Shown: positions 7,949 to 30,000 of the stretch, piece after piece | How positions within the stretch are numbered: position 1 is the stretch's first letter | Layout: each line of letters begins with the position of its first letter | Source: Verrucomicrobiota bacterium | GTDB taxonomy: Bacteria; Verrucomicrobiota; Verrucomicrobiia; Opitutales; UBA953 | Assembly: GCA_026397955.1 (NCBI GenBank) | Contig: JAPLTV010000114.1 | Coordinates: forward strand, 1-33,125 | Reading direction: 5' to 3' | DNA: 33,125 nt | Notes under the pieces: model-generated | Told to the model about the DNA's origin: nothing | Database searches by the model: none | Seen by the model: the letters and a program-made list of their open reading frames with translations, nothing else | Translations under genes and position numbers: made by a program

Positions 7949-8067
7949 GGTAGGGCGGCCATTGCCATGGCCGCCGTTCGCAGCGGCACGTGCAGAGAGC
8001 CGGGCAAAGCATTTAGACCATTCAACCTCCGTGCGCCCACGGACGTGATAGCAATCACGTCCCTACC
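7949..8067 (+). repeat. REP-pair (BIME-like) element A
   Basis: 119 bp, bounded by GGTAGGG and CCCTACC. Left hairpin: stem GGCGGCCAT/ATGGCCGCC with loop TGCC. Right hairpin: stem GGACGTGAT/ATCACGTCC with loop AGCA, one base away from the GGCA of other copies. The linker differs most from other copies (CGTGCGCCCACGG instead of CGTCCGCCCACGG). It lies between two paralogous secreted-protein genes. Confidence 0.88.
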
Positions 8068-9098: not shown

Positions 9099-9127
9099 GG
9101 TAGGGTCGGGACCGCGTCACGACATAG
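9099..9127 (+). repeat. Solo REP, type III
   Basis: GGTAGGG followed by TCGGG-ACCGCGT-CACGA, an imperfect hairpin with a GTAG foot, then CATAG. The same 29 bp occur at 10505-10533 and, inverted, at 10809-10837. No right-hand partner is seen here. The preceding GATTGCCTC is also shared with the 10505 copy. Confidence 0.75.
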
Positions 9128-9193: not shown

Positions 9194-9219
9194 GGCAGGG
9201 ACAGCACCACGTGCTGTCC
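9194..9219 (+). repeat. Solo REP-like hairpin, type IV
   Basis: GGCAGGG (one change from the GGTAGGG foot) followed by a perfect stem ACAGC/GCTGT around ACCACGT. The loop follows the AC-NNN-GT pattern of type II (ACTGCGT) and type III (ACCGCGT), which suggests a further member of the same REP superfamily. Confidence 0.5.
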
Positions 9220-9302: not shown

Positions 9303-9419
9303 GGTAGGGCGGCCATTGCCATGGCCGCCGTTCGCCGAGGCACGTGCTACCACCGGGCACTGTCTTCGGACCTTTCGAGCTCCGTCCGCCCACGGACGCC
9401 ACGCAGTGGCGCCCCTACC
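9303..9419 (+). repeat. REP-pair element B (chimeric loop types)
   Basis: 117 bp. The left arm has the type-I loop (ATTGCCAT) while the right arm has the type-II hairpin CGCCAC-GCA-GTGGCG. The first ~96 bp are identical to element C, and the right arm is the same as that of element E, so B looks like a recombinant or arm-converted element. Confidence 0.88.
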
Positions 9420-9498: not shown

Positions 9499-9616
9499 GG
9501 TAGGGCGGCCATTGCCATGGCCGCCGTTCGCCGAGGCACGTGCTACCACCGGGCACTGTCTTCGGACCTTTCGAGCTCCGTCCGCCCACGGACGTGATGG
9601 CAATCACGTCCCTACC
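9499..9616 (+). repeat. REP-pair element C
   Basis: 118 bp, type I in both arms (left ATTGCCAT, right ATGGCAAT, its reverse complement). It is identical to B up to the right hairpin. Followed by a small separate hairpin, CGCGGC-GTA-GCCGCG. Confidence 0.9.
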
Positions 9617-9699
9617 TGCGCGGCGTAGCCGCGAGGGGATATGCTGGCATGGTGACATGGGGGCACGGGGAGATGATGCCGGGGATTTGTCATCCGTCC

Positions 9700-9759
9700 T
9701 CAATTCAGCCCTCAATTCAGCCCTCTACGCTGTCCTCTATTCAGTCCTCCATTCAGACC
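9700..9759 (+). repeat. 12-bp tandem repeats, five units
   Basis: Five units of consensus TC(A/C/T)ATTCAG(C/T)CC: the first two are identical, the third is degenerate (TCTACGCTGTCC). The same 12-bp unit occurs four times at 11751-11798. They lie 75 bp upstream of a secreted-protein gene. Confidence 0.85.
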
Positions 9760-9798
9760 ACAACTTTCCCCTTACCCTGGGGTTTTCTAATTAGCCTA

Positions 9799-10504: not shown

Positions 10505-10534
10505 GGTAGGGTCGGGACCGCGTCACGACATAGC
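10505..10534 (+). repeat. Type-III REP, left member of a perfect 30-bp inverted pair
   Basis: Identical to the inverted sequence at 10808-10837 over all 30 bp. It begins GGTAGGG and holds the ACCGCGT loop. The pair encloses elements D and E. Confidence 0.9.
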
Positions 10535-10543
10535 CGGCATCTA

Positions 10544-10662
10544 GGTAGGGCGGCCATTGCCATGGCCGCCGTACGCAGCGGTATGCGCGGACCACCGGGC
10601 AGTGTCTTTGACCATTCCAGCGTCCGTCCGCCCACGGACGTGATGGCAATCACGTCCCTACC
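10544..10662 (+). repeat. REP-pair element D
   Basis: 119 bp, type I in both arms. Its linker is the same as that of element E apart from one base (GGTATGCGCGG against GGCATGCGCGG), although E has different arms. Confidence 0.9.
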
Positions 10663-10682: not shown

Positions 10683-10799
10683 GGTAGGGGCGCGACTGCG
10701 TCGCGTCCGTACGCAGCGGCATGCGCGGACCACCGGGCAGTGTCTTTGACCATTCCAGCGTCCGTCCGCCCACGGACGCCACGCAGTGGCGCCCCTACC
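10683..10799 (+). repeat. REP-pair element E (type II in both arms)
   Basis: 117 bp. Left hairpin CGCGAC-TGC-GTCGCG, right hairpin CGCCAC-GCA-GTGGCG; the loop regions ACTGCGT and ACGCAGT are reverse complements. The GGTAGGG and CCCTACC feet are kept. It lies 20 bp after element D and shares its linker. Confidence 0.9.
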
Positions 10800-10807
10800 C
10801 CGAGGTA

Positions 10808-10837
10808 GCTATGTCGTGACGCGGTCCCGACCCTACC
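10808..10837 (-). repeat. Type-III REP, right member of the inverted pair
   Basis: Perfect reverse complement of 10505-10534. Its CCCTACC contains the stop codon (TAG on the minus strand, 10833-10835) of the LamG-like gene. Confidence 0.9.
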
Positions 10838-11654: not shown

Positions 11655-11811
11655 GGAGGACTGAGTCGAGGGCTGTATTGAGGACTGCGTAAAGGACTGC
11701 GTGGATCAAAGACAACGGCAGATGACAGGTCGCCGGCGCATCGTGATTTCCACTCAGTCCTCCATTCAGCCCTCCACTCAGTCCTCCATTCAGTCCTCTC
11801 TCTCCTTCGCC
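11655..11811. repeat. Inverted repeat with 12-bp tandem units
   Basis: Bases 11655-11679 (GGAGGACTGAGT...) are a near-perfect reverse complement of 11764-11787. The right arm is part of four tandem 12-bp units (11751-11798: CACTCAGTCCTC, CATTCAGCCCTC, CACTCAGTCCTC, CATTCAGTCCTC). The whole fills the gap between the ApbE-fusion gene and the LamG-like gene and could form a long hairpin in the transcript, possibly acting as terminator or processing site. Confidence 0.8.
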
Positions 11812-14430
11812 TCACTTCCCGCTCTGCCAGACTTTCTTATCCGGGGTGACGAGGAGAACGTCGAGCTGCTCGCGCTGCGCGATGACCTTGGCCTGTTCGA
11901 AACCGGCGGCCATCAGCGCGGTGGACCAACCATCCGCCTGGAAGCAGCTGTCGTGATAGACCACGGCCATCTCGAGCGTGGGCTCGACGGGTCGTCCGGT
12001 CTTGGGCGAGAGGATGTGCGACACGGGCTTACCCGCGGCGAGTTTCTTGGCGCGGTAGAGCCCGGAGGTGCTCAGCGCCCGGTCCGTCAGCAGCACGGTC
12101 TTCAGCATCACGCGAGGATTAAAGGGATCTTCGATGCCCACGCGCCACGTGCCGGCGGCCAGGATCTCGCCGCCGACCTCGATGAGGGTGTCGTGCTGGC
12201 CTTGAGCGCGGAGGATCGCGGCGGCACGATCCGCGGCGTACCCTTGCAGCACGGAACCGAGGTCGAGGTTCACCCCTTCGTGGCTCTTGGCGAGAGTCAG
12301 GTTCTCTTTGTCGAGCTTAAGCTTCTGCCAGCCGACCTTCGCGAGCGCAGCCTTCAGCTGCTCCGGCGTCGGGTCGGCTAGCTTGCCCGCCGGACCGTAA
12401 CCCCAGAGGTTCGTCAAGGGCGCGACGGTGATGTCATACATGCCGCCCGAAGCGGCGCTGAGCTTGAGCGCGAACTCAACCGTATCGGCGAGCTCTTGGG
12501 TGATACCGAACGGCTGGACGGACTCGAGGTGATTGAAGTCGGCGGTCGCGGAGGACTCGCGCCAATGCGAGAGCGAGAACTCCACGCGATTGATCTCGGC
12601 TTCGAGCTCGCGCTTGAGGATCTCCGCATCGACGTCGCTGCCGCGCACCTTCACCGTCCAAGTCGTGCCGAACGCCGCGCCGTGCAGTTCGGTGACGGCA
12701 TGGCGGGCCGAACTTTCCGGGGTGTCTTCCGCGGCGAAGTCCGCATGAGGGAGGAAAGCCACCACCGCGCCCAGCGCCAGGATGACCGCCGCCCGCGTGT
12801 CGCGGCGGCCCCAGGTCTCGGCTTGGTTGGCGGAGCGCACGAACTTGAAGAGTGCGCCGGTCGGGCAGCCATATTTGCAATAAGCCTGCGGGACGACGAC
12901 CGAGGCCAGCAGCCCGACCACGGCCAAGGTCAGCGGGATGGCGACCCCGACCCCGAGGACCCAGGCGTCAAAGGGCTCGACCTGTCCGAGGCTCCAACGG
13001 GGCCAGGCCAGGGCGGCTAAAAAGGCCCCGGCAAGGGCGATGGCAGGCAGTTTGCCCAGCCAGAGGTGCCAGCGGGCGGGAACGGCCACATGCAGCCGCT
13101 TAAGGCCTCCCAGCAGCTCCTGGGCCGCCCCGTGAGGGCAGGCGTGGTGGCAGTAGAGCTGACGGCGGGACCCCCAAGGAACCAGGAGGGCGATCCCTCC
13201 GAGGATGAGCAGCGCCGGAGCCTGGGCCCAAGGGATCCCATGACGGGCCCAGCCGGCGAAGAGCGAGAGCGAAAGCAGCTGCCCGAGCCACAGACCGAGG
13301 CCGCCGACGAGGAGGATCTGCCAGACGGTCCGCACCACCGGTCGGCCATGCAGCGGCGTGAAGGTCATCAGCAACGCGCCGGCGAGAAAGCACCAGAGGG
13401 CTGCGGTCTGGAGCCGTTGCCGTGCGTCCTGTTTCTCGCGATGGCCGCCGTGCGCGTCGTCGGCGAAGCGTGACTGCAGGCCCTTGGCGATCGCGTAGCT
13501 CGTGAGCGTCGCGCCGGCGACGGTGTCGAGCTCACCTTTGCGGAAATCGAATTCGGCCCATTCGCGCGTGGTCCATTTCGTCAGGTCCTTGAAGTAGGTG
13601 CGGCCTTGCGGATCCGGTTCCTGGTCCTTGATACGGCTGACGTAATCGGCGGTGTCGTAGGTCGTGCGGAGCTTGACCTGGCGGAGCCGGAGGCCGTCCG
13701 ACTCGACGGCGATGAGCGTCTCGCTCGGGCCAGCGTAGCCGATGACTTCGTCCGCGGAAGGCGAGGAACGCACGACGTAGCCGAGGTGGGCGCGGTTAGG
13801 GCCGCGCACGAGATTCCAGCCGAGGCGCGGGACATTGGGCTCGAAACCGGTCGCGTCAGGGAAGCCGGCACCTTGGATTTCCTTGAGCGAAAGCGCAGTC
13901 GGGAAACGCAGGGAAACGTAATTACCCGACAGGCGCTTCTGGATCGATTCGGTGATCGCGTAGGCGGTGAGCGTCGAGCCCGCGTAGGCCTCGAGCTTCG
14001 GCGCCGGTTGCGTCGTGGGGCGCCAATCCTTGAAGGACTTCTCGAACGCCGGGTTACCGCGCAGTGTATCCACGTGCTCCGGCGTGTCTTCGCTCGAGAG
14101 GATACGGGTGCCGACGATCTTCTCTTGGTTATCGAGCGCCACGAGTACGTTGCTCGGGCCGGCGTAGCCGAGGATGCTGTCGGCGTCGGGCGAGGTCGTG
14201 ACCAATCGACCCAGACGGTTACCGTATTGATCTTGGACCAAGAGGGTTTGGTTGGGACCGGACTTCAGGCGCTTGGCGCCGGGGAAGAAGGCCTTGGCGT
14301 CGTCGAGCCCCAGGCGCGTCAGCGCCGACTCCGTGACGGGGGTCGTGCGCTGCAGCAGCAAGGCGGCCAGCAACAGCGCCGCGAGGCGCCAGCTCTTGAC
14401 CAGCCAGGCGCTGACGCGGGGTGATGGCAT
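11812..14430 (-). CDS. NosR-like FMN-binding membrane protein fused to ApbE flavin transferase
   Basis: 872 residues. Order: an N-terminal transmembrane helix (about 12-26); FMN-binding domain 1 ending in AGSTLT (150-155); FMN-binding domain 2 ending in AGATLT (305-310); a membrane core of about six helices (342-562) with two CxxxCP motifs (C427/C431 in CHHACP and C518/C522 in CKYGCP), as in NosR/NapH/RdxA-type ferredoxin-like membrane proteins; and an ApbE domain (about 574-872) with GAAFGTTWTVKV, SLSHWRESS, SGGMYDITVAPL, LDLGSVLQGYAADRA, EVGGEILAAG and HILSPKTGRP. ApbE proteins link FMN covalently to the last Thr of [S/A]G[A/S]TxT motifs, so the protein may flavinylate its own two domains. 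Likely role: passing electrons through the membrane to periplasmic acceptors. Its ATG is 3 bases after the stop of the FAD oxidoreductase gene, hence one operon. The usual IaKG of ApbE reads VLQG here. Confidence 0.88.
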   Translation of the reverse strand: MPSPRVSAWLVKSWRLAALLLAALLLQRTTPVTESALTRLGLDDAKAFFPGAKRLKSGPNQTLLVQDQYGNRLGRLVTTSPDADSILGYAGPSNVLVALDNQEKIVGTRILSSEDTPEHVDTLRGNPAFEKSFKDWRPTTQPAPKLEAYAGSTLTAYAITESIQKRLSGNYVSLRFPTALSLKEIQGAGFPDATGFEPNVPRLGWNLVRGPNRAHLGYVVRSSPSADEVIGYAGPSETLIAVESDGLRLRQVKLRTTYDTADYVSRIKDQEPDPQGRTYFKDLTKWTTREWAEFDFRKGELDTVAGATLTSYAIAKGLQSRFADDAHGGHREKQDARQRLQTAALWCFLAGALLMTFTPLHGRPVVRTVWQILLVGGLGLWLGQLLSLSLFAGWARHGIPWAQAPALLILGGIALLVPWGSRRQLYCHHACPHGAAQELLGGLKRLHVAVPARWHLWLGKLPAIALAGAFLAALAWPRWSLGQVEPFDAWVLGVGVAIPLTLAVVGLLASVVVPQAYCKYGCPTGALFKFVRSANQAETWGRRDTRAAVILALGAVVAFLPHADFAAEDTPESSARHAVTELHGAAFGTTWTVKVRGSDVDAEILKRELEAEINRVEFSLSHWRESSATADFNHLESVQPFGITQELADTVEFALKLSAASGGMYDITVAPLTNLWGYGPAGKLADPTPEQLKAALAKVGWQKLKLDKENLTLAKSHEGVNLDLGSVLQGYAADRAAAILRAQGQHDTLIEVGGEILAAGTWRVGIEDPFNPRVMLKTVLLTDRALSTSGLYRAKKLAAGKPVSHILSPKTGRPVEPTLEMAVVYHDSCFQADGWSTALMAAGFEQAKVIAQREQLDVLLVTPDKKVWQSGK

Positions 14431-14433
14431 CCG

Positions 14434-16800
14434 TTAGTCGGCGAGGATCAGCTGGAAGACGTCGGCCTGCACGCCGCCCTTGGCGCCGTCGGCCGAGAGG
14501 ACGAGGGTGTGCGTGCCGGCGGCGAACTGGAACTTGCCGAGCTTGTTGGCCTGCTCGATCTCGCCGACCTTCTGGTTGAGGCGGAGCGTGACGGTCTTTT
14601 CGCCGGCGCGGTTGATCGTCAGCACGGAGTTGGCCGAGCGGTTTTCGTGGCCCTGCCAGTAGCCGCGGAGCTCGTACTTGCCGGCGTCCTTGACCTCGAA
14701 GGTGTAGGTCGCGCGATTGCCGTTGCCGGAGGCGTAGTGGTAGCCCGCGCCGAGGTGGGCGAGGCCGTGGCCTTCGGTCCACTTGCCTTCGAACTTCGCC
14801 TGGGCGTCGTCGACGACGATGCCGCCCAGCTTGGCGAGTTCCTTGAGGTCATCAGGGGAGAGCTTGCTCGGGGTGCCTTTGGTGAGGTCGAGGTTCATCT
14901 TGCCGACGGGCAGTTCCTTGAAGTCGGCGATCGAGGTGTCGAGGAAGAGGTCGCTGCGGAGGTCGCTGCGGCGCATGCGGCCAGGCTGTTCCATGAGCTT
15001 GATGAGGTCGGGCAGGTGCTTCTGGTAGACGCCGCGCGGGTCGGTGTTCTCGCGGACGGCGAGGTAGGCCGCCTTGCCGACGACTTCGCCCATCATGCCG
15101 ATGGTGCGCATCACACGAATGGTGCCCAGGGCCTCGTGCGTGACGGAGATATGGCGGCCGGCCATGAAGAGATTGCCGATGTTCTGGGAGTAGAACAAGC
15201 GGTACGGTAGTGGGTAGCCGTTGCGACGGTCGACGGCCGCGATGTGCTTGCCGTCCGGGCCGACGTAGCCGAAGGCGGCGCGGGAGATGAACGGGTTCTC
15301 CGGGAACTTCTTGGCGTACTGTTCGCGGGCGTAGTGGAGGTCGATGTCCCAGGTGGTGGGCACGCAGCCGTCGTCGAACTCCTTGCGTTCGATGATGTCC
15401 TGCTTGTTCAGGACGATGTCGCCGGTGAACAGGCGCGACTCGCGCGGGCCGCCGACATGCGAGGCCCACTTGAGGTCAGACTGGGCGTACTTGGCGGCAT
15501 CGGGGCCGTTCTTGAGGGCGGAGAAGGCGCCGTAGATCGCGCGGAAGTTCCAGTCGCGGATGTATTCCAAGCCGTTGATCGGATCCTGGTCGAAACCGGA
15601 TTCCCAGAACCACTCGGCCTTCATGAAGGGCTTATCGTCGATTTTGGCCTTGGATTTCTGCAGGGGCGGGAAGTCGCCGAGTTCGAGCGGCAGCGCCCAC
15701 GGGGTCGCGGGCCAGGAGACCGCCTGGTCGGCGTCCTGGTAGAACCACATGTTGGACATGCCCATACGCTTGTCCTTTTCGATCTGATACTTCGCGCCCG
15801 CGTAGGCGCCGACCCAGCCGTGGCCGGTGGTGTCCGCCACGAACTTCGCGCGGAAGGTCTTCTCGCGGCCGGTCTTGACGTCGATGGCCTTCACGGCGGC
15901 AATGCGGTTGCCGTCCATGATGACGCCGGTGGCGAAGTGGCCGAGGAAGAGGGAGATGTTCTTCTCGTTGCGGACGACCTTTTCCTTGAGGTCGTCGCCA
16001 AAGCTATCGACGCGGCCGGGGCTGTCTGGCGAGCGGTCGCCGATCTCCTCGATGATCTCGCCGAGGTGCGGGTATTTACCGCGCGTGGTGCCGCCCATCG
16101 CCCAGACGCCGATCTCGGAGCTACCGTTGCCTCCGAGGACGAAACGATCCTGGATGAAAGCGACCTTCAAGGACTGACGAGCGCCGGAAAGAGCCGCGCC
16201 GAGGCCACCGTAGCCGCCGCCGACGACGACGAGATCGAACTCGCCTTGGTCTTCGGGGCCCTTGGGGCTATTCCACTGCGAGCGGGCGGCGACGAGCGCG
16301 GCCCCTTCGGGCGGGATAAAGGAGGCGTCCTTGCTGAAGAGGATGGCGTCGGCGCGACCGGCGAAACCGGTGAGGTCATGGAGCGCGAGTTTCACGTCGC
16401 CCGCAGGCAGCGTGACCTTACCGCCTTCTTGCCAATGCCACTCGGCGCCCTTGGTGCCAAACTCGGCGGCGACGGCCTGGCCGTTGACGATCAGCTGGAA
16501 GCGGCCGGGGGTGCCGGGGGCGTTCCAGTGGGCGACCCAATCTTTGGTGCGCACCCAGACGCGGTATTCGCCGGCGGTGGCGATGCGGACCGAGCCCGTG
16601 GCATCGGCGACGGGCTTACCGAGGCCGTGGGCGAGGAGATAGGGCGAGCCGACGATGTTCGTGAAGGAGGTGTCGAGCTTCCAGCCGCCATGGGAGGACA
16701 GCGATTCGGCTTCGACGAAGACCGTGTCAGAGGATTGGGCGCGGCCAGAGACGGCGGCCAGCAGGGACAATCCGAGGAGGGAAAGCACGCGAGGGGACAT
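14434..16800 (-). CDS. Secreted FAD-dependent oxidoreductase with carbohydrate-binding-like domains
   Basis: 788 residues from the ATG at 16798-16800 (MSPRVLSLLGLSLLAAVSGR, signal peptide). The open frame continues 61 codons upstream, but that stretch is a translation of REP element F and is rejected. Residues about 25-160 look like a beta-sandwich (EAESLSSHGGWKLD...). The FAD fold starts at 188 with FDLVVVGGGYGGLGAALSGA (GxGxxG type) followed by LGGNGSSEIGVWAMGG, and has a late GNLFMAGRHISVTHEALGTI that closes the FAD site, as in the FAD_oxidored family common in Planctomycetota and Verrucomicrobiota. The last ~120 residues (GYHYASGNGNRATYTFEV...) resemble the golvesin/xanthan-lyase-type binding domain. 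It probably oxidises or reduces a sugar or glycan outside the cytoplasm; the substrate is unknown. It is directly followed (3-bp gap) by the FMN/ApbE membrane protein gene, a plausible electron partner. Confidence 0.9.
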   Translation of the reverse strand: MSPRVLSLLGLSLLAAVSGRAQSSDTVFVEAESLSSHGGWKLDTSFTNIVGSPYLLAHGLGKPVADATGSVRIATAGEYRVWVRTKDWVAHWNAPGTPGRFQLIVNGQAVAAEFGTKGAEWHWQEGGKVTLPAGDVKLALHDLTGFAGRADAILFSKDASFIPPEGAALVAARSQWNSPKGPEDQGEFDLVVVGGGYGGLGAALSGARQSLKVAFIQDRFVLGGNGSSEIGVWAMGGTTRGKYPHLGEIIEEIGDRSPDSPGRVDSFGDDLKEKVVRNEKNISLFLGHFATGVIMDGNRIAAVKAIDVKTGREKTFRAKFVADTTGHGWVGAYAGAKYQIEKDKRMGMSNMWFYQDADQAVSWPATPWALPLELGDFPPLQKSKAKIDDKPFMKAEWFWESGFDQDPINGLEYIRDWNFRAIYGAFSALKNGPDAAKYAQSDLKWASHVGGPRESRLFTGDIVLNKQDIIERKEFDDGCVPTTWDIDLHYAREQYAKKFPENPFISRAAFGYVGPDGKHIAAVDRRNGYPLPYRLFYSQNIGNLFMAGRHISVTHEALGTIRVMRTIGMMGEVVGKAAYLAVRENTDPRGVYQKHLPDLIKLMEQPGRMRRSDLRSDLFLDTSIADFKELPVGKMNLDLTKGTPSKLSPDDLKELAKLGGIVVDDAQAKFEGKWTEGHGLAHLGAGYHYASGNGNRATYTFEVKDAGKYELRGYWQGHENRSANSVLTINRAGEKTVTLRLNQKVGEIEQANKLGKFQFAAGTHTLVLSADGAKGGVQADVFQLILAD

Positions 16801-16851: not shown

Positions 16852-16971
16852 GGTAGGGCGGCCATTGCCATGGCCGCCGTTCGCCACGGCAAGTGCGGAC
16901 CACCGGGCAGACTCTTTCGACCCTTCCAACCTCCGTCCGCCCACGGACGTGATGGCAATCACGTCCCTACC
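16852..16971 (+). repeat. REP-pair element F
   Basis: 120 bp, type I in both arms. It lies 51 bp before the start codon of the FAD oxidoreductase gene (which reads the other way), so it sits in that operon's upstream region. It is followed by the linker module and element G. Confidence 0.9.
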
Positions 16972-16994
16972 CAAGACAGCCAATCAACCCGTCT

Positions 16995-17036
16995 CCGGTT
17001 TCCCTTTGAGCGCCCAACCGCTAACCGCCAACCGCT
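16995..17036 (+). repeat. Inter-element linker module (between F and G)
   Basis: CCGGTTTCCCTTTG (16995-17008) and CCGCTAACCGCCAACCGCT (17018-17036), as between B and C. Its GTCTCCGGTTTCCCTTTG also matches, inverted, 7236-7253 over 18 bp. Confidence 0.8.
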
Positions 17037-17049
17037 GATACCTGTTATG

Positions 17050-17169
17050 GGTAGGGCGGCCATTGCCATGGCCGCCGTTCGCCACGGTACGTGCGGACTA
17101 CGGGGCAAAGTTTTTTTGACCGTTCAAGCTCCGTCCGCCCACGGACGTGATGGCAATCACGTCCCTACC
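17050..17169 (+). repeat. REP-pair element G (upstream of the RAYT gene)
   Basis: 120 bp, type I in both arms, with a more divergent linker (GGGGCAAAGTTTTTTTGACC). It ends 62 bp before the chosen RAYT start, or 11 bp before the alternative ATG at 17181. Confidence 0.9.
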
Positions 17170-17231
17170 CTATACCGGCTATGGGTAATCAATGGACTCG
17201 GGGAACGGCCTATGGGGCTAAAGATACCGAC

Positions 17232-17687
17232 ATGGCCTTACCTGACCGCGACAGACCTGGACATCATCGACCGTCGTGGGTATCCGCAAGCGACCCGATC
17301 TTCGTCACCCTCTGCGGGGCCGAGCGCAGGGTTAATCAATTCGCACGTGAGGTCCAATGGGAGGTTTTGGTCCAAGCAGCGAATCATGTCTACGTGGCGG
17401 GCCTCTGGCAGCCGCTGCTCATGCTCGCGATGCCCGACCACGTGCACCTGATCGTGCGGATACCGAGGGCCTCCGGCATCGCTTCGGCGATCAGAAGATT
17501 CAAGCGTGCCGCCAGCTACGGGAAGCAAATCCGGTGGCAACCGGCTGCTTTCGACCATCGCATCAGGTCTGACGACAGTTATCGCGAGAAGTGGCAATAT
17601 GTCCTGGCCAACCCCCGAAGAGGAGGACTCATCAAAGAAAGCGACGCGTGGCCTTACTTTAAGACGTGGAACATTAACGCGCCATAG
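17232..17687 (+). CDS. REP-associated tyrosine transposase (RAYT, Y1/HUH family)
   Basis: 151 residues from the ATG at 17232; an in-frame ATG at 17181 would add 17 residues with no family likeness. The N-terminus GHHRPSWVSASDPIFVTLCG fits the first strand of IS200/IS605-type Y1 transposases. The metal-binding HUH motif is seen as H70-V-H72 in MPDHVHLIVRIPRA. Helix IASAIRRFKRAASYG follows. The likely catalytic tyrosine is Y123 in REKWQYVLANPRRGGLI, which matches the RAYT pattern E-x-W-x-Y-[IV]-x-x-NP-x-[RK]-A/G-GL. RAYTs are single-copy, domesticated-looking transposases that cut and move REP sequences having a GTAG foot. Here the gene lies between REP-pair elements G and H, and the G of its TAG stop is the first base of H. 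This context strongly supports the call. No partner gene or transposon ends of its own are seen. Confidence 0.85.
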   Translation: MALPDRDRPGHHRPSWVSASDPIFVTLCGAERRVNQFAREVQWEVLVQAANHVYVAGLWQPLLMLAMPDHVHLIVRIPRASGIASAIRRFKRAASYGKQIRWQPAAFDHRIRSDDSYREKWQYVLANPRRGGLIKESDAWPYFKTWNINAP

Positions 17688-17805
17688 GTAGGGCGGCCAT
17701 TGCCATGGCCGCCGTTCGCCGAGGCGCGTGCTACCACCGGGCAGACTCTTTCGACCATCCCAACGTCCGTCCGCCCACGGACGTGATGGCAATCACGTCC
17801 CTACC
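17687..17805 (+). repeat. REP-pair element H (downstream of the RAYT gene)
   Basis: 119 bp, type I in both arms. Its first base is the last base of the RAYT stop codon (17685-17687). Confidence 0.9.
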
Positions 17806-17840
17806 CAAGGCAGACAATACACCATCAGTCGGCACGCTTA

Positions 17841-17959
17841 GGTAGGGCGGCCATTGCCATGGCCGCCGTTCGCAGAGGCACGTGCGGTGAGCCGGGCAAG
17901 GTCTTCGACCCTCCCATCGTCCGTCCGCCCACGGACGTGATGGCAATCACGTCCCTACC
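17841..17959 (+). repeat. REP-pair element I
   Basis: 119 bp, type I in both arms, 35 bp after H. It ends 17 bp before the terminator of the giant repeat-protein gene. Confidence 0.9.
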
Positions 17960-18024: not shown

Positions 18025-21000
18025 TCAGGCCTTCTTCGTCTGGCGGCGGCGACGGATCGCGGCGGCCGCGAGGGCCAGCGCACCGAGGCCGATGCCGTAG
18101 GTCGAGGGCTCAGGCACCGCGGTCAGCGTGATAGCGCCGTTCGTGGTGTTGAAGTCGATCGCCCAGAGGCTCGCCGCCGAGGCCGAGCCACCGGTGTAGG
18201 TGAACTGGCTGGTGTCGAAGGCGAACAGGTCGTTGACGTTGGTGTTCGTGCCGAGGTTCAGGCTGCCGGCGGTGAACGAACCGAAGCTGAAGTGCTGGAT
18301 ACCGGCCGCGCCTTGCAGGAGCGAGAGGTTGCCGGCCGCTCCGAGGGTCGTGGCATCGGACATCGAGACCAGCTTGATCACGACCTTGTTCGACAACGAG
18401 GCGCCGCTGAGGTCGAGACTACCGAAGGAGTACTGGTCATAACCGACGCCGGCGAGCTGGGTGTTGATATCCCAGATCTTGAACTCGAGACGCGCGCCGC
18501 CCGAGAGCGTCATGCTGGTCGTCGAGAAGCTGCCGATGGCGGTGCCGCGCGAGACGGTACCGTGGTCGCCCACGGAGACGTTACCGAGCGCGACCGGCGC
18601 CACGAGCGTGCCGCCGATGGTGCCGTTGCCGGTGACGTTGATGTTATTGGCGACGGACTGGTTGACCACCATCGTGCCGGTGTTGCTGACCGTGGCGGCG
18701 CCGGAGCCGAGGGCGCCCGCGTTGTTCACGGTGACCTTGCCTTCGGTGACGCTGAGGCCGCCCGAGAAGGTGTTAGCCGCGGCGAGGATGAGGTCGCCGG
18801 CGCCGGACTTCACGAGGGCACCGGTACCGAAGGACATCGCGCTGAACGAGGTCGCGGTGGAGGCGTTATCGAACTTGATCGTCGCGGTCGCGCCATCGGC
18901 CACCTTGAGGCGGGCGCCGAGGTCCTGGCTATTGGTCGATTCCCAGCGAAGGGTCGAGCCGTTGGCCAGGTTGATGTTGCCGGCGCTGGCGCTGTTACCC
19001 AGGGCGTTCAGGTAGAAGCCGAGGACACCGCCGTTGACGGAGACATCCGCATCCGGAGCCAGGATCGCGTTGCCGGAGCCGCCGATGATCCACTGGCCGA
19101 CGCCGTTCTTGACGACGGAGGAGAAGGCGCGCGCGGCATCCGCGTTGTCAAGCAGACCAGCGGAGAACGTATTGCCTTGGGTAGAGGTACCCGAGAGCGT
19201 GAGCGGACGGCCGGCAGCCGGAGCGGCGTTATCGAAGTCAATCTGGTCCGAGCTGCTGACGACGAACGGATTCGAGCCGCTGGTGGCGTGGAAGCCCGCA
19301 CCGCCGTCCTTGACGAGGAAGTTGCGGCCGAAACCGCCGCCGGTGAACTCGATCGCGCCGCCATTGAAGACGAGGTTCGCATGGACCGAGGCGGACGAGC
19401 CGCCAAGCTGGGCCGCGGCGGCGAACTTCAGCAAGCCGCCGGTGACCGTGTTCGTTCCCGTGTAGGTCTTGGCTGAGCCGCTCATGACGAGCGTGCCGGC
19501 ACCGGACTTCGCGAGGCTGGAGACACCCGTGACCGGAGCCGCGTCGGCGTAGGAACCCGAGAAGGTCAGCACCTTGCCGGCGGCGACGTTGAAGTCGCGC
19601 GAGGCGCTGGTGAGGCCGACGTTGATGTTCTGGGCGGAGATCGTGGCGTCGTCCGTGGCGGACACGTTGCCGAGCAGGATCCAGGAGCCGGCGACGTTGG
19701 GCGAACCATCGCTGGTCAGGTTGCCGCCGTTGAGCGTGACGTTGCCGAGGTAGCCCGTGTAGGTCGTGGCATCGGCGACACCCGTGCCGTTGAGGGTCAG
19801 CGGCACGCCGTAGGAGGAGGTGCCGAGGGCATCTGGGGCGGTGACCTTGAAGGTCGCGCCGGTCTCGGCGATGACCATGCCCGCGGCGGACAGGGCGCCG
19901 GTGGTGTAGGCTTCCATCGTGCCATGAGCGGCGATCGCCCGACCCGTGAAGTTCGGGTTGTCCGTGCCGATCCTCAGGATCGCGGAGCTCTGCTGGACGT
20001 AGTCGCCCGTGCCTTCGACACGCGTCATGTTGGTGAAGTCGGTCGTCAGGTTGAAGCGGATGACGCCCGGGGTGGCCGTCACGATCTTCGTGGCGTTACC
20101 GACATTGCCGGCGTTGCCCGCGATCGTGCCGTTGCCGACCTGGAGAATACCATCGGTGACGTAGAACTTGCCGCTGAAGGGGCCGTTGTCGGCCATGAGC
20201 GAGGTCATGCCCGTGCCGGTCTGGCGGAAGTCGCCGGTGTTCTGCAGCACATTCATGAACAGCAGGTCCAGCGAGCGGGCCACGTCGACCTTGGCGAGAG
20301 AGGCGATGTCGACGTTGCCGGAGCCGAAGACACCGTTGCCGGCGAGTTCGAGGATGCCCGCGGTGACGGTCGTCTGGCCGACGTTGCTATTGAGGCCCGT
20401 GAGGGTGAGCTTGCCCGAGCCGACCTTCGTGAGGCGAAGGTTGGCCATGCCGGCGCTGGCCACGGAGTTGTCGACAAACGAACCACCGAAGGTCGCATCC
20501 GTGATGCTACCGACGGTCAGCGTGCTGTTAGTGGTCAGCGAGGAGTTAGTCGCGAAACCGGCGCCGCCGATCGCCTCCAAGGTCTGGTCGAAGCCGTTAA
20601 GGTCATAACCGGCACCGGCCGACATCGAGAGGAGGCTACCCGAGGGGACCGCGTCCGTGATGCCGTTACGGAGCAGGCCGGCCGCGACGACGATGCCCGC
20701 GCCGCCAAAGTTGGCGTTGGTGTTGGCGGAGCCGAGGACCAGGATGCCGTTGCCGGCCTTGGTGAGACCGACGGTGCCCGCGACCGAGGCGGCCGCGGTG
20801 GTGGTCAGGAGTCCGTTGAAGGTCGCCGTGACGCCCGGGGTGCCGACGCTGATCGTGCGATTGAAGCCGCCGAGGGTGATCGGACCCGAGAGGATGACGC
20901 CTGCGCCAGCCGTGCGGCCGCCGAAGGAGAAGTCGCCGTTGACCGAGATGCCGTTGGCGATCGTGCGGATGGTGCCATCGCTCATGAGCGAGGTGCCGTT

Positions 21001-24000
21001 GCCGATGCTGAGCACGCCGGTGCCGATCGGACCGCTGGTGACCGCGCCGGAAATCGGCGTCGAGTTGGCGCCGAACATCAGCGAGCCCGCGTTGAGGTTC
21101 AGGCCCGTGGTGAAGGTGCTGGCGCCGCTGAGGGCGAGCATGCCGCCGCCGGCCTTGGTCAGCGACAGGTTGCCGCCGTTCGAGATGATCGCCGAGATCA
21201 GCAGGCCCGTGTCGGCCAGACCGGAATTGACGGTGATGACGGGGCTACCATTGCTGAACTGCAGGGCGCCGGTGATGGACTGGGTAGCCACCTGGGACTG
21301 GTTGACCGAGGTGATCGGGTTGGCGGACGAAAGGATGAGCAGCGTGCCCGGAGTGACCGTAGCGAGAGCCTGCGCGCCTTCGTTATTGATCGTCAGCGAG
21401 TTCAGCGTGTTCGTACCGACGAGGGTCAGCGTGCCGCCGCCGTTGATGGTGATGTTGGAGGTCGGCGCAATCTGGCCGGGGTTAGTCACCATGACCAGCG
21501 CGGTGTTCGTGCCGGAATTCACGCCATTGATGACGACGTCGCCGGGCAGGATGACCATGCCGGACTGGCCGTTCAGGTTCGTCGTGCCCTGATTGAGGAA
21601 CGTCGTACCGATGAACGTATTGCTGACCGCGCCAGCGGTCGGCGAGCCAAGGCCGACGGTGCCGCCACCACTGCGGACCAGGTTGAACGTGCCAGTCAGC
21701 GGCACGTTGATGTTCATCGTACCCTGATTCTGGTAGATATAGAGGTCAGGGCTGGTGGTGGTCAGCGAGCTCGTGTTGTCCGAGGCCTGCAGGGTGATCG
21801 TCTGATTGGCGTTCGTGATGATGCCGGTGACGAGCGTGACATTGGCGCCGCTGAAGGCGATCGTCTGCGCGGCCGACGGTGTGAAGCGCCAAGAATTGGC
21901 GGTCTTCGTGCCGGTCAGGGTACGGGCGAGCGTGCCGTCGCTATAATGACCCGAAGCGAGGGTCGTCAACGAGATATCCGGGCCGGTGAATTGGACGGTG
22001 GTCGAGCCGTAGTAGCTGACACCCATCTGGCTGAGACCCCACTGGTTGTTGTAGGTCGCGAAGGTCGAGCCATCCGCGACCGCCCAACCGCCGATGATAC
22101 CGTTGACCAGATTGGCCGACGTGAACGGGGTGCCGTTGATATTCTGGAGGAAGACGCGGCTCGAGGAGGTCAGGCCAGGGCTACCGAGGGTGTTGACGCC
22201 GGTGGAGTTGTTCGTCGCGGTCCAACCGTTGAAGTTGACCATGGAACGGGACTCCAAGGTGCGGACGAAGTTCGTGACGATGATCTTGTTGGAGCTGCCT
22301 TCATTGATGAACGGCTGGGTGTAGAAGTGCACATTACCCGAGTTCGCCGTGACGGTGCCGAGGGTGATGTCGGTGTCGACGCCGCCGCCGCCGCTGATGT
22401 TCAGCAGGCCGCCGTTGATCGTGATCGGGGTGGTCGGGCTGATGCGGGTCGGGTTGGCCGCGGCGTTGAAGCCGAAGTTATCCCAGCGCAGTTCGCCGTA
22501 GTTGATGGTGATCGCCGAGGTGTTGAGGATCGAGGCCTCGTCGCGCAGCTGGAGGATGCCGCCGCGGACGGTGGTCGTGCCGGTGTAGGTGCTCGGCGCG
22601 GTCAGAATCGTCGTGGTGTTGCCCGCACGCTGGAAGGACAGGCCTCCGGTGATGCTACCGGCGAACGTCGAGTTGTTGGTGGTCGTGAAGACCGCGCCGG
22701 CCAGGCCGGTGACGGTGCCGCCCATGCCCGGCAGCGGGTTGACACTGGTGAGGCCGTTGACGGTCTGGTTCTTGGCGCCGATATCGAGGGTCGCGCCGCC
22801 GTTGAGCGTCAGGAACATCAGGGTCGGGCTCGCCAAGGTGGCGATCACCGGGATGGTGTTGTCGTAGCCAGAGTTCAGGCGGAGCGTGCCGCCGTTGACG
22901 GTGACGACACCGTTGAGGCCGGTGATGGCGTTAAGGTTCATCACGCCGCCGTCGGACTTGATGAAGCCGACCGAGCTGCCCATGCCTAGGTAGGAGTCGA
23001 CATTGAGCGTGGCGCCCGCGAGGACGTGGAAGACCGGGGCCTGGGTCGAGGTGCCGACGAGACCGACGTCGATCTGGGCCGTGCCGCTCTTGACGAGGAC
23101 GGCCGAAGCATTGGCGAGCGAGAGGGTCAGGACCGTGCCGGCCGGACCGAACTTACCGAAGGTCGTGGCCGAGAGGCCGGAGGTGAGCGAGGTCGTAGCG
23201 CCGTCGAAGGTCAGCGTATTGACCGAGGTCGGGGAGCTCATCGTGACCGCACCGGTGACGCCAGCGTTCTGCTGGTTATTCCAACCCGAGACGGTGGCAT
23301 TGAGGTCGGCCGAGGCCAGCGCGCGCCAGGCCAAGGACATCGGATCCTGGGTAAGGAAGCCGTCACCGAGGCCGGTGCGGGAAGCCGAGACGAGGATGTC
23401 GCCGCGGACGGCTAGGCTCGTGCCGCCGAAGCCCTGCCCTGCCACGAAGTTGCCGTTGGTCAGCTGAAGGTCGGCCACGCCGGCGCCAGGAGTGAGCGTT
23501 CCGTCGAGACCCGCGATGACGAGAGAACCCGTGCCGGTGGCGGCGAGGGTCGTGACGACCAGCGAGAGCTGGTTGTTGGCGTCAGGGCTGAGTTCGAGAC
23601 GACCGTTACCGGTGCTGAGACCGAGGGTCGCGAAGCTTTCCGTCGTGGAGGCGGCGCTGTTGCCGTTGAGCGTCAGCTTACCACCCACGATGTTGACCGT
23701 ACCGCCGAGCGTCGCGCCGAGGCGATTGTTGACGTTCGTCGCGGTGTTATCGAGCGCGAGGACCGAGCCGGACTGGACGTTGAAGATGCTGTTGGCCGCG
23801 GCGGAGGAGACGAAGGCCTTGCCGTTGCCGGAGTAGGTCAGACCGCCACCGCTGACGGTGATGGCACCGAACGAACCGGTGGTGGGCTGGGCGGTATCGA
23901 ACGTCATCACGCCCGTGCCGACCTTCGTGAGGAGGCCGTAAGCCGCGTCATTGAAGCGCATCAGACGACCCGAGAAGGTCGAGGAGGTGTTGTCGAAGCC

Positions 24001-27000
24001 GACCGACAGGGTCGGGGTACCCGAGGAGCTGAAGACGTCGCCCGTTCCCGTGAGGGAACCCCAGGTGGTGTTGAGGCCGTTGAGATCGAAGCGGGTACCG
24101 GCGCCGAGGTTCAGGCGCGAGAGGCGCGAACCGGCGTTGGTGACGCCCGTCTTGATGGCGCCGGCGGCCACATTGAAGGCGCCGGTGGAGTAATACTGGG
24201 CGTTGAACTGCAGTACGCCGTTACCGGTCTTGGTGATACCGCCGGAAGAACCGACGATCGCCTGGATGCCGACGGTGGCGCGCAGGGAGTCGACGTCCGC
24301 GACGCCGTTGACGGAGATCGGCGCGACGTTGATGGTGTTCGGCGAGGTACCGAAGTCGAAGCGACCTTCGAGGTAGCTGACCGGGGAGATGTTCTGCGAG
24401 GTGGCGACGAGGCCGCCGGCGCCAATGGTGAGCACGCCACGGTCGCCGAGGACCCAGGTGCTACCATTCAGCCAGACATCATTGAACGAGCGGACGATCG
24501 ACTGCGTCGCCGAGCCGCTGTTGTTCATGGTCAGCTTCTTGACCGTATTATCGCCGAAGTAGCGGATCACGCCGCCGGCGTTGACGATGACTTCGTTGCC
24601 GGGGTTGATCGCGGCTTGAATCATGGTATGCAGGGTACTCTGGGTGACGACGACACCATTGGTCGGGTCAGTCGCGAGAGGAATACGTCCGCCGCCGCCC
24701 CACGGGCTGATGACAAGGGTACCTTGGTCGACGTAGGTACCACCGGTGTAGGTGCTGGTCCCTTCGAGCTGAATCGTGCCGCTACCCGTCTTCACGAAGG
24801 CCATGCCCGCGCCGACGATATTGGCACGAATCACGTGCCAGGCATTGCCCTGGGCTTCGACGATGAGCTCGTTCGTGCCCGAGGTCAGGTTACCGACGGT
24901 GGCCGACGTACCAATGACCTGCTGGTTCGTGCTCCACATGATGACACCCCCCGTACCGACGGTGAGCGTGGTACCGGCCGAGAAGTCGATCATCGACGAG
25001 CCGACGTTGTCGAAGCGCAACGAATTGATCGTCTTATCGGCCGTGAGCGGGATCGTCACGCCGCCGCCAGAGCTGATGTTGAGGTTCGAGGTGGCCGTGG
25101 CCGTATCGAGCGTCGTGGTATCGGTCGTCGTGTTGGAGTAACCGAGGAAACCGTCGGTGCCCATCGCGCCCACGCCGTAGATCGGCGAGTAGGTAGCGAA
25201 GTGGTGGGTGCCTGTGCCGATCGCGCCCATGACGGCCCAGCCGCCGATGATGCCGTTGGTGAGGTTGGCCGCGGAGAACGGCACGCCGTTGAGGTTCTCG
25301 ATCTTGACGCGATTATACAGGCCAGACGTGAAGTTGGCCGCCGTGCCGAGATTACGGACGAGGTTACTGATGGTCAGGGTCGTGGTCGCATCCGCACCGG
25401 CGCCGTTGGCGACATAGAACTGCGACTGGCCAAGCGCCAGGGTCGTCGTACCGATGCGCTCGGACGAATTGTTCTGGGCGCGTCCGCGGAGCTCGAGGTA
25501 GCCGCCGCGCATGGTGACAGGGGCCGCGTCGTTGAGGCGGTCCATGTTGTCGCTCCAGCTGTTATTGTTCTCGAGGTAGAGGTTACCGAAGTTCAGGTCG
25601 ATCGCCGAGGTCGCCGACAGACGGGCGTCCTGATACATGACCGTGAGGCCGCCGTTGATGAGGGTCGCGCCGGTATAGGTCAGGTCGGAGTAGAAGTTGA
25701 ACGTGCCGTTGCCGGACTTGGAGAACTTCACGTCGCCCGAGATGGTACCCGAGAACGTGCGGGTATCCGTCGTGATCATCAGGTGGCCCGTGCCGCCGGT
25801 GCTGGTGATGTTGGAACCGTTGCCCGGGACCGTGGAGTCGTTGAAGAAGCCGTAGGTCTGGAGCGAGGTGCCGTTGAGGTCCAACGTGCCGCCCATCGGC
25901 GCGAAGTAGTTATACGGCTGGATGGCGTTGTTGATGCCAGCGCCGAGCTTGAGCGTGCCCTGATTGAGGACGAGCTGGCCCGAGAGCGTATTGGTACCCG
26001 TCGCGGCGAGGCCGTTGATGGTCGAGGCGACCGGGGCAATCGTGAGCTTGCCTGGGCCGTTCTTAATCAGCGACATGCTGCCGTTCGAGACGCCGTTGCC
26101 GCCCGAGAGCGCAGAATTGATCGTCAGGTCACCGACCGTCCAGATGGTGAGCGGCGAGAAGTTATTCGGGAAGTAGAGGACGCCGCCCGAGATGGTCGAG
26201 TTGCTGCCAGCGCGGACCAGGATACCGCCCGAGCGCAGGTTGAACTGGGCGCCGTCGGCGATGGTGAGGTTCGCGTTGCCCTCCATCGTGAGGGAGTTGC
26301 GCGTGGCGTTGCCGATGACCGTCGCGCCCGTGTACGGGACGCCGTAGAAGGTTCCGCCGAGCAGCTGGAGGTTGGAAGTGGCTGCGGTGCCGGTCGTGGT
26401 GCCGAGGATTGAAGTCGGGTTGGTCTCGTATTCGGTCGAAGCGAGCGGGCGGAGGTAGCGCACGAGGGCGCCGTTGGCGATGACGCCGGTGGTGGCGAAG
26501 GACATGCCCTGCCCCGTCGTGGTCAGGTCGACGAGTGCCCACGGGAGCATCGCGCGGTTGGCGGTGCCGGCGGCACCGGTCTCGCCGGACCAGGCAGGAT
26601 CGACGACGAGCTGGACGCTCGCGCGGGCCGTGGCCGGGGTCTCACCGATGCCGCGGAAGAGATACGAGGCCCCGTTGGCGGCGGTGGTCTGGGCCGGAGT
26701 CGGGTTGGTCCAGGCCGTGCCGCTGCGGAAGGCGAGGATCGTCTGGGCGAAGGTGACGTTCTGCTGCGTGACGGTCAGGACGTTGGAACCGCGACTGCTC
26801 AGGACGAGCGTGTTGAAGTTCTCGTAGGACGGGTAGGCGCTGTTGAGGGCGCCGACGAGGTTGAAGTTACCCCCGCGCATCGTCAGGTCGTAATAGAGAC
26901 CGCTCTGGAGATTGGAGAAGCGGCCCTTGTCGAAATTGACGATCGAGTCGTCGACGGTGACGGTGGCGCCGTTCTCGATGAAGAGCTTGGAGCGCCAGGT

Positions 27001-30000
27001 ACCGTTGGAATCGATGATCAGCGTGCCCTGCTTGACGGTGAGCCCGTTACCGGTGGTGTCGGTGACGTTCGTGGTATTGCTCGACTTGATCCAGAAGGTG
27101 CCCGTGCCGTATTTCTCGATGGAGCTGAAGGTGGTGCCCGCAGCAACCGTGAGCTCGGTCGTGCTGAGGACGAAGTTGCCGTCGCCGACGAAGCGGAGCG
27201 CGGTGTTGCCGATGGTGCTGTTGATGCCGCCGTAAATGCCGCCCATGATATTGAGCGTGCTGCCCGCGGAGGATCCGATGACCGCGCCGTAGGGCATGGT
27301 GATCAGGCCCGTTAGGTAATTACTACCGGAGAGGCTCTGCAGCTGGCCGCCGAAGTTGACGCCGCCTTGGGTCTGAGCGCCCGTGGCCTGGAGGGTGATC
27401 GGATTGGACCAGGTGAAGCCGCCCGCGAGCTGGAGGGCCGTGCCCATGTTGGTCGAGAGGGGCGAGACCGAGAGCGTGCCGGAACCGGCCGCGGTGGCAG
27501 AAGTGAGGCGCAGGACACCCGCGTTGACCGTCAGGCCGCCGGTCCAAGTGCTATTATTGGCGGACAGGACGAGCGTACCGGCCTCGTTCTTGAACAGGTT
27601 GTTCGTCAGGGCGCCGAAGGCGAACGGCGAGGACAGCGTGAGCGTCTTGCCCGCGGTGACCGTGAAGGCGTTGTTGACGGCGTTCAGGTTGAACGTGCGA
27701 GCCGAGGCGAAGGATTCCGTCGCACGGAAGCCGGTGTTCTCGACGCCGTTGGCGGTGATCGTGACCGTGTTGGCGAGGTCGCCGAGCGCGGCGTCGGAGT
27801 TGACGCTCAGGAGACCGCCCTGGATGTCGAGGGTCTTGCCGGCGCCGCCGAAGGTGTTGATGCCGCCGAGAGCGAGGAAGCCGTCACCGGTCTTGGTGAG
27901 CGTGAGGCCCGCACCCGCGTCAGAGATGACGCCGTCGATCGAGTAGGTCGGGTAGGCGGTGAGGGTCTGATTGGTCGCCGTGGCGGTGGTGGCGCTGGTC
28001 AGCAGGAACGCAGAATTATTAGCAACGGTGGCGATCTTAGCTCCGAACGGGATGGACGTGCCGGCGACCGGCATGCCCGCCGATAGGACGGAAGTACTGC
28101 TGAGCGCCAGGGTGACCCTCACGTTCGAGTTGAAGGTGGCATCGGTGAAGCTGAGGGCGGCCGCGTTGATGGCGGCGTTGTCGGTAAGGGTGACCGCGCC
28201 GTTACCGAAGGACAAGTTGTTGCCGGAGACGGTGAAGCCCTGCTTCCAGACCATCGCATTGGAAGCGGCGAGCGTCACGGCCGCGCCGGCGACGTTGTTG
28301 ATCGTCACGCCGGTGCCGAGTTGGAAGAGGCCGCTGCCGACGGCGCTGGCGGAACCGAGGTTGAGCGTGCCGTCCGTGAAGTTCAGGCCGCCCGCACCGG
28401 TGTTGGCACCGGAAAGCGTGAGCGTGCCCGCGCCGATCTTGGTGATCGGGCCGGCGAAGGTGACGGGGCCGGTGAGGGCCAGCGAGGAGCCGTTCGTACC
28501 CGTGCCGACGACCTTCCAGGTCTGCGCACCGGCGGCGATGAGCGGAGCCGAGAGGGTGATCGCGCCGGCATCCGTGTTGACGGCGATGCCGTTGGCGGAG
28601 CTACCCGGGGTGAGCGTCAGGGTACCCGCGGTACCCTGGGCGATGGTGATCGAGGGCACGCCGGTGAGGGCATTGAAGATGAGGCTGTCGGCGGAGAGGT
28701 TGCCATCGAGGGTCAGGCTCTTGGCGCCGGCCGTGACATTGCTGGTACCGAACACGAGGGCGTCGGTGAGGGCCGGCAGCGCGGCGGTGTCGATGCCGCC
28801 ACCGACATCGGTGGCCCAGTTGGTGTCGCCCGCATTGTTCGCGAGGAGCGAGTTGCCCTGGTCGCCATTGAAGAAGGCGTAGGTGATCTGGCTCGCCTGG
28901 ATACGGAGGATCGTGCCGCCGCTCGCGGTCGTGATCTGGTAGTTGAGGGTCGTCGGCGCGTTACCGAGAATCCACGTGGCGCCGGCGAGGCTGCCGCTGG
29001 CGTCAGTGATTAGGTCGTAAGAACCGATGGCAAGGCCACCGAGGTTATTCAGATTGAGCGAGATGATGCCCGAGAGGGTCGGGGTGCCGGTGAGGACGAG
29101 CTTATCGTTCACGCCCGGGGCGTTGAGGTCGAAGCCGAGCGTGGCGCCATTGGCCATCGTGAGGGCCACGCCCGTGTTCGTGGTGGCGTTGGTATCGAAG
29201 AGATTCAGGGTCGCGCCGGAGCTGACGTTGATCGAGCCGAGGCCGGTGGCGAGGAAGCCGGCGTTGAGGACGCCCTGCGTGACGGCGACGCCGCCCGTGC
29301 CGAGGTCGGCGGTGTTATTGACGGTGACCGTGCCGGTACCGCTCTTGGTGAGGATGCCGGAGGTGCCAGTGAGGCCGCTGTTCAGGGTAAGTGTGCCAGT
29401 CTTATTGGCCGCTTCGATCGTACCGCCGGTCGAGCCGACGGCGAAGTTCTGGTTGGCCGCGGCCGCCGAGCCGCCGGTGTAGCGGAGCGTTCCGCCGTTG
29501 ACGGTGACCAGGTTGGAGCTGGTAGCGTCTCCGAGGTTCGGACCGCTGGCGAAGGAAAGGACACCCGCGTTGACGGACACCGCGCCCGAGAAGGTGTTAG
29601 CACCGGAGAGGATGACCGTACCGGAAGTGGTCTTGATCAGGCCGGAAGCGCCGGCGAGCTTACCCGAGATCGTGCCGCTGCGCACGTCGAAGTCATTGGT
29701 AGCGGACAGCGTACCACCGGAACCGATGATCGACCCGGAGGTGAGTCGGACAGTGTCGACGGCTTCGTCGAAGGTGCTGACGTTCAGGCTGCCGCCGTTG
29801 ACGTTGACGAGGGCGAAGTCCGAGAGGACGTTGACGCCGCCGATGGCGACGGTGCCCGTGTTGATCGTCGTCGCGCCACCGAAGGAGTTGTTGCCCGTGA
29901 GGGTCAGCGTGCCGGAGCCATTCTTGGTGAGCGCGGCGGACAGGCCGCCCGACATCACGCCGGTCAAGGTCGTATTGCTCGAGCCGGTGATGGTGAGCGT

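Follow-up and report, generated by a model that had tools for sequence, protein, structure and literature searches.

The window analysed here, the whole 33,125-nucleotide stretch of contig JAPLTV010000114.1, comes from a 2.45-Mb Verrucomicrobiota assembly (G000; 126 contigs, 4.3% contamination) and contains an intact gene for a REP-associated tyrosine transposase (RAYT) together with nine paired hairpin elements, A to I (Table 1). Each element consists of two facing hairpins, each behind a 5'-GGTAG foot, with the GGTAGGG feet turned outward, and all nine are intergenic. The initial annotation had located the elements, the gene and its HUH and Y..NP motifs correctly, and its description of outward feet and hairpins in all nine is supported by fold and pattern controls: when compared with 200 dinucleotide shuffles, eight elements had only 0-2 shuffles that folded as well, and B had 7. 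The element length, which it had taken as fixed at about 118 bp, actually ranges from 117 to 120 bp.

Most window elements have GGTAGGGCGGCCATTGCCATGGCCGCC as left arm and, on the other strand, GGTAGGGACGTGATTGCCATCACGTCC as right arm, the two enclosing a spacer of about 65 bp (class T1), whereas arms of class T2 carry a TGC loop in place of the TGCC of T1. The earlier proposal that the window RAYT made these elements agrees with 15 of the 18 arms, which are of its own class T1, but not with the other three, E's two arms and B's right arm, which are T2. The initial annotation had also overlooked four solo REPs. Three are of class F4, hairpins of which occur at RAYT loci of two relatives (L079 in G007 and L116 in G065), and one is of class K, a class with its own RAYT loci among relatives. 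Tandem 12-bp units of the TCCATTCAGCCC type lie beside REP-rich gaps at 9688-9771 and 11725-11808. Positions 18025-32559 on the minus strand hold a repeat-rich ORF of 4844 aa, whose C-terminus, as read from the sequence, resembles a PEP-CTERM-type sorting signal.

Table 1. REP-related features of the window, numbered from its first nucleotide
Feature	Position	Strand	Remarks
REPIN A	7949..8067	+	arms T1/T1
Solo REP, class F4	9099..9127	+	imperfect hairpin; weak fold, 22/200 shuffles as good
Solo REP, class K	9194..9219	+	decayed foot GGCAGG
REPIN B	9303..9419	+	chimeric: left arm T1, right arm T2
REPIN C	9499..9616	+	arms T1/T1; spacer identical to that of B
Solo REP, class F4	10505..10533	+	3/200 shuffles fold as well
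REPIN D	10544..10662	+	arms T1/T1
REPIN E	10683..10799	+	arms T2/T2; spacer 98% identical to that of D
Solo REP, class F4	10809..10837	-	judged by sequence
REPIN F	16852..16971	+	arms T1/T1
REPIN G	17050..17169	+	arms T1/T1; 62 bp upstream of RAYT ATG at 17232
RAYT gene (protein P0001)	17232..17687	+	151 aa; in-frame start at 17181 also possible
REPIN H	17687..17805	+	arms T1/T1; foot overlaps last base of RAYT stop codon
REPIN I	17841..17959	+	arms T1/T1

The RAYT gene and its protein

The RAYT gene lies between G and H, and its product combines the HUH motif MPDHVH with a single tyrosine in the Y..NP signature YVLANP. Across 33 aligned RAYTs, H70, Y123, N127 and P128 are invariant, and H72 is conserved in at least 90%. 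P0001 scores under both curated family cut-offs, which are database thresholds and not biological features: 67.2 bits against 80 for NF047646, the NCBI model for REP-associated transposases, and 21.5 against 23 for PF01797. Matches above the NF047646 cut-off were obtained in 8 of 57 related genomes and 3 of 18 genomes searched later, and include same-genus RAYTs of other classes. Among PDB sequences, E. coli TnpAREP (4er8, E 7e-9) is the sole match up to E 0.01; the predicted structure (mean pLDDT 88) likewise places 4er8 first among PDB folds (TM 0.73/0.68), followed by the ISDra2 and IS608 transposases. The residues reported to contact the GTAG foot in TnpAREP, W94, Q95, E100 (E/D), H101 and R104 (PMC6006769), align with W102, Q103, D108, H109 and R112 of P0001, and among the 33 aligned RAYTs the W, Q, H and R equivalents are invariant, with D108 conserved in at least 90%. 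The identification of the window gene as a RAYT accompanied by GTAG-foot REP pairs of matching class is supported.

Several peculiarities of individual loci deserve mention. The RAYT stop codon (17685-17687 in the window) lies in or beside the downstream REP at 34 of 39 loci, often as the TAG of the foot or as a TGA within the hairpin. At one class R4 locus (L047, genome G028) the second HUH histidine is replaced by arginine (MPDHLR), yet cognate hairpins are present. A different Y1 transposase (L002; contig C11 of G000, 1263-1928) is situated between repeats starting GGGGTCAGGCCGTACC and resembles the TIR-flanked "TIRYT" genes with a GGGGWSAS motif reported by Di Nocera 2013 (PMC3733652).

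Hairpin classes, RAYT relatedness and copy number

The genome-wide copy count bears out the initial annotation: the pattern GGTAGGGN{90,120}CCCTACC finds 108 long foot-to-foot pairs in G000 and a spacing of 24-54 a further 66 short ones, a minority of the pairs listed being not REPINs but G-rich repeats or feet of neighbouring units. The reversed-pattern control gives 0 matches in the 2.45 Mb, and a chance origin of the pairs is excluded. A control with scrambled five-mer feet and a loose hairpin test proved unspecific (763 GGTAG sites yielded 175 hairpins, seven control feet 17-103 each) and was replaced by a perfect-stem census of 443 kb of G000 in 22 stretches, where 94 of 202 hairpins with stems of at least 8 bp carry a GGTAG foot; among the 60 listed of the remaining 108, many are terminator-like. 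The T1-left arm has 31 copies in G000. T1 arms also enclose spacers of a second type, about 125 bp long, and the 44 long elements that were typed comprise 33 with the first spacer, 9 with the second and 2 with neither. In 28 T1/T1 elements of G000 the arms are 93-97% alike and the spacers 69%, the excess of arm over spacer conservation that characterizes REPINs. In the 65-bp spacer of T1/T2 elements both the ends and a core, CCGGGCA, are conserved, and this spacer may carry a function of its own.

Among 470 hairpins (148 distinct) from RAYT loci, each of the two outer stem pairs is G-C in 464, and variation in the middle pairs affects both partners; the innermost stem pairs together with the loop distinguish most classes, the middle of the stem being free as long as it is paired. 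Sixteen distinct T1-type hairpins, a set pre-filtered for pairing, are 100% paired. Of 500 shuffles, none attains their covariation score, though 287 attain their count of pairs with changes in both partners (4 of 9).

RAYTs were sought in 57 related genomes, the loci considered being those among the matches listed (one weak match in G034 lies outside), and then in 18 more genomes of the genus UBA953; 7 loci of the former search and 8 of the latter belong to a different type of transposase, mostly longer, and were excluded. The RAYTs of the genus fall into at least 15 classes, named after their flanking hairpins, which differ between classes behind one GGTAG foot common to all. An automated finder located GGTAG-foot hairpins no more than 700 nt from 37 of 38 same-genus REP-type loci, and an imperfect hairpin at the 38th (L079) was recognized on second inspection; some loci have hairpins on one side only, the other side showing a contig end or a decayed foot. 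In the 18 later genomes such hairpins accompany 15 of 15 REP-type loci: 10 are of the nearest relative's class, 2 (L109 and L119) share one arm with it and were given class X (from L052) by protein, their other arm differing, and 3 (L106, L110 and L113) belong to classes not seen before. Nearly all RAYTs inspected have flanking hairpins of a class that their closest relatives also have. In a tree built from 51 RAYTs (L042, L035, L106 and L110 lie outside it), the number of changes among the 15 class labels, a few of which lean on protein, is 14, the minimum. Beyond the genus, a GTAG- or GTGG-tagged hairpin occurs near 24 of 46 RAYT loci, including assemblies labelled Prosthecobacter, Kiritimatiellales and Chthoniobacterales; these loci were drawn from 80 fetched by name, with most genus members left out.

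RAYTs also keep to fixed sites: of the 44 loci for which a class-mate exists, 37 have flanking DNA in common with one or more such class-mates. The window class is represented in two genomes only, and in both its RAYT occupies the same chromosomal place: the second T1 RAYT, in G068, is 75% identical and likewise set between T1 REPINs. It has on one side the two-gene block known from the window and on the other the 43 nt that come after the RAYT in the window as well. The block (11812-16800 in the window) is oriented there in the opposite sense to G068, and also to G004, G007, G012, G015, G016, G027 and G030. In G070 the class Q RAYT is not inverted, contrary to a first impression, the whole 2.3 kb matching on one strand. 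Nor does G013 offer a clean empty site; homology ends near the outer feet of F and I, with unrelated sequence between.

T2 hairpins flank a different RAYT, found at L056 (G010) and L062 (G023) and as a frameshifted copy on contig C107 of G000. The REPIN upstream of the frameshifted copy is T1/T1, whereas its counterparts in G010 and G023 are T2/T2. The right flank of C107 matches G023 closely and G010 partly, and the spacers of the upstream REPINs are loosely alike; the REPIN upstream on C107 may be a replaced element.

Copy number follows the cognate RAYT in statistics that ignore kinship and include genomes 61-99% complete. Across 55 genomes, class K arms reach 11.3 per Mb with a K RAYT (n=7) versus 4.0 without (n=48, p 6.5e-5), class M arms 13.7 with an M RAYT (n=6) versus 3.2 without (n=49, p 4.8e-4), and class T1, with only two genomes carrying its RAYT, 7.7 versus 0 (n=53, p 0.012); for non-cognate copies there is no clear increase (p 0.10 and 0.066). 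The question of whether the families are equally common without a RAYT, raised by the initial annotation, receives a mixed answer. The median density of all pairs in 37 genomes is 34.6 per Mb where a REP-type RAYT is present (n=20) versus 13.8 where none is (n=17, p 4.5e-4), but G012, G030 and G032 hold 38-44 pairs per Mb with no REP-type RAYT detected, and T1-left arms number 18, 16 and 15 in G008, G012 and G030, respectively, where no T1 RAYT was detected. RAYT loss or assembly gaps could lie behind such high-copy genomes.

Arms and spacers

Neighbouring elements of the window combine closely similar spacers with different arms: B and C, 79 bp apart, have identical spacers and different right arms, and D and E, 20 bp apart, differ in both arms around nearly identical spacers. 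On contig C47, a trio within 1.4 kb displays three arm combinations around related spacers (closest pairs 88-91%). In other species, the same gene gaps contain T1/T1, T1/T2 or T2/T2 elements, although in G007 and G027 the outer flanks have no clear match and separate insertions are possible. In one element of G010 (L318, contig C42) the left arm, CGGCCATTGCGTGGCCG, joins a T1 stem to a T2-like loop, a possible intermediate inside one hairpin.

An arm-blind test used a model of the spacer alone on 55 genomes and gave 150 places among the matches listed, corresponding to 149 elements (one place lay at a contig end), from which six with an unreadable arm were removed. The 143 elements kept, again among the matches listed, comprise 95 T1/T1, 22 T2/T2 and 26 mixed (18%), a few arms being classed by eye and T1 being possibly over-represented by a model built mostly from T1-rich loci; three regions of G025 stand outside these counts. 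Within genomes and among these matches, an element agrees in its arms with the one whose spacer is nearest in 77 of 139 cases, against 75.0 expected by permutation (p 0.38); arm class does not track spacer lineage at this level. Across genomes the matches listed show a modest link, with agreement in 83 of 143 cases where 69.4 would be expected (p 0.011), a result in line with ordinary descent. Same-arm pairs within genomes are in excess, 542 versus 424 expected (p 0.007, matches listed). The present test supersedes an earlier one whose elements had in part been picked near REPs (28/50 versus 25.3 expected, p 0.24). Hairpin ends appear to have been exchanged between element families, the middle of the element staying put.

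The observed anatomy, the matching of classes, the association with copy number and the decoupling of arms from spacers very probably reflect a REPtron with its REPIN population, in which exchange or homogenisation affects the arms independently of the spacer. By analogy with E. coli TnpAREP, for which recognition and cutting of single-stranded REPs are reported (PMC8266576), the window RAYT would bind the foot together with the loop end of a single-stranded hairpin, use its single tyrosine to cut at the foot, and thereby multiply or renew REPs of its own class; a foot common to all classes would be expected because the residues equivalent to its contacts are invariant or nearly so. With arms exchanged or homogenised apart from the spacer, an element could pass from one RAYT class to another through mixed forms such as B. 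The agent of exchange would be either the RAYT or host recombination.

For the exchange of arms alone, ordinary host recombination, in which RAYTs have no role in switching, comes close to an even chance. Neighbouring REPINs with similar spacers would undergo gene conversion or crossing-over, and the heterologous hairpins would stop the tract at the arm boundary. The proximity of B to C, of D to E and of the C47 trio agrees with this, as does the single g3-g4 element of G030, which joins the left flank of D to the right flank of E and has one T1 and one T2 arm, the outcome expected of a crossover inside the spacer; REP gene conversion was already proposed in 1988 (cited in PMC3116915). Recombination alone, however, does not explain the excess of same-arm pairs within genomes and leaves the stronger conservation of arms than of spacers in G000 to another cause, such as selection on the hairpin. 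A rather unlikely but conceivable course is that living RAYTs rewrite arms in place, copying a single foot-plus-hairpin arm and leaving the spacer; the intact T1 RAYT would then be overwriting the T2 arms, the T2 RAYT being frameshifted, and the T1/T1 REPIN on C107 may be a case in point. Host recombination is somewhat likelier than such rewriting because the clearest cases involve neighbouring elements.

Two further explanations would make the pattern an artefact or the RAYTs irrelevant. Arms are multi-copy repeats of 26-27 bp in a contaminated assembly of 126 contigs, and chimeric elements might be errors of short-read assembly; this is very improbable, given that arms are shorter than usual assembly words and that mixed-arm elements also occur in G016 (2 of 8), which has contigs of up to 481 kb whose "tig" names suggest long reads. 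That the hairpins are kept for a host role in transcription end or mRNA stability, with RAYTs as incidental passengers, would suit the position of the window elements between genes and the persistence of foot-to-foot pairs in genomes with no REP-type RAYT detected. It is nonetheless improbable, since RAYT clades correspond to the classes of their flanking hairpins and copy number is class-specific. The preferred reading remains the REPtron with separately exchanged or homogenised arms.

Relation to known REPtrons

The kind of system is already known, namely a REPtron with REPINs; REPtrons, cognate classes, hybrid dimers and GTAG REPs of Opitutus terrae are all in print (PMC3733652, PMC3686654, PMC8266576, PMC6006769, PMC3116915). 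In a literature search that covered few subscription papers and no preprints, RAYTs in Verrucomicrobiota were met only in PMC3733652, and a decoupling of arms from spacers was not found. The assertion of the initial annotation that such systems are little described in Verrucomicrobiota is half right, O. terrae being named in that paper as highly enriched in GTAG repeats. Its GTAG-17, GTAG-19 and GTAG-20 REPs (Di Nocera 2013, PMC3733652), compared here by description, belong to the same phylum and share GTAG feet and head-to-head dimers, some with spacers of 1-2 bp like the shortest pairs found here; they differ in that one species is described there and that most GTAG-20 elements are reported to have GTGG.

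The E. coli REPtron (TnpAREP with Y and Z REPs, 4er8) shares the HUH/Y1 fold, the inverted GTAG-foot REPs around the gene and the foot-contact residues. It differs in that the structural alignment shows only 25% identity and in that its REPs have long stems with mismatches, whereas the hairpins here are perfect 9-bp stems with loops of 3-4 nt. In foot and hairpin type the system resembles the Stenotrophomonas maltophilia REPtrons of group 3 / subclass 2.5 (Nunvar 2013, Di Nocera 2013, Corneloup 2021, Quentin 2018), for which a foot beside a perfect palindrome, several classes per genus and cognate copy number are described. The present system belongs to another phylum, has a single GGTAGGG foot for all classes found and shares spacers across classes, and its mixed elements (18% among the matches listed) compare with about 10% hybrid dimers reported there. 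The inverted REP doublet, with spacers less conserved than arms, is the unit also described for the REPINs of Pseudomonas fluorescens SBW25 (Bertels and Rainey 2011), where doublets are said to be "rarely mixed", as against 26 of 143 here among the matches listed.

How REP classes switch, the "orthoswitch", was left open by Nunvar 2013, and the window gives concrete cases of such switching. With at least 15 RAYT classes, one foot, differing hairpins and mixed-arm intermediates at known sites, the genus constitutes a natural data set both for the code by which RAYTs recognize hairpins and for deciding whether the arm or the whole REPIN is the copied unit.
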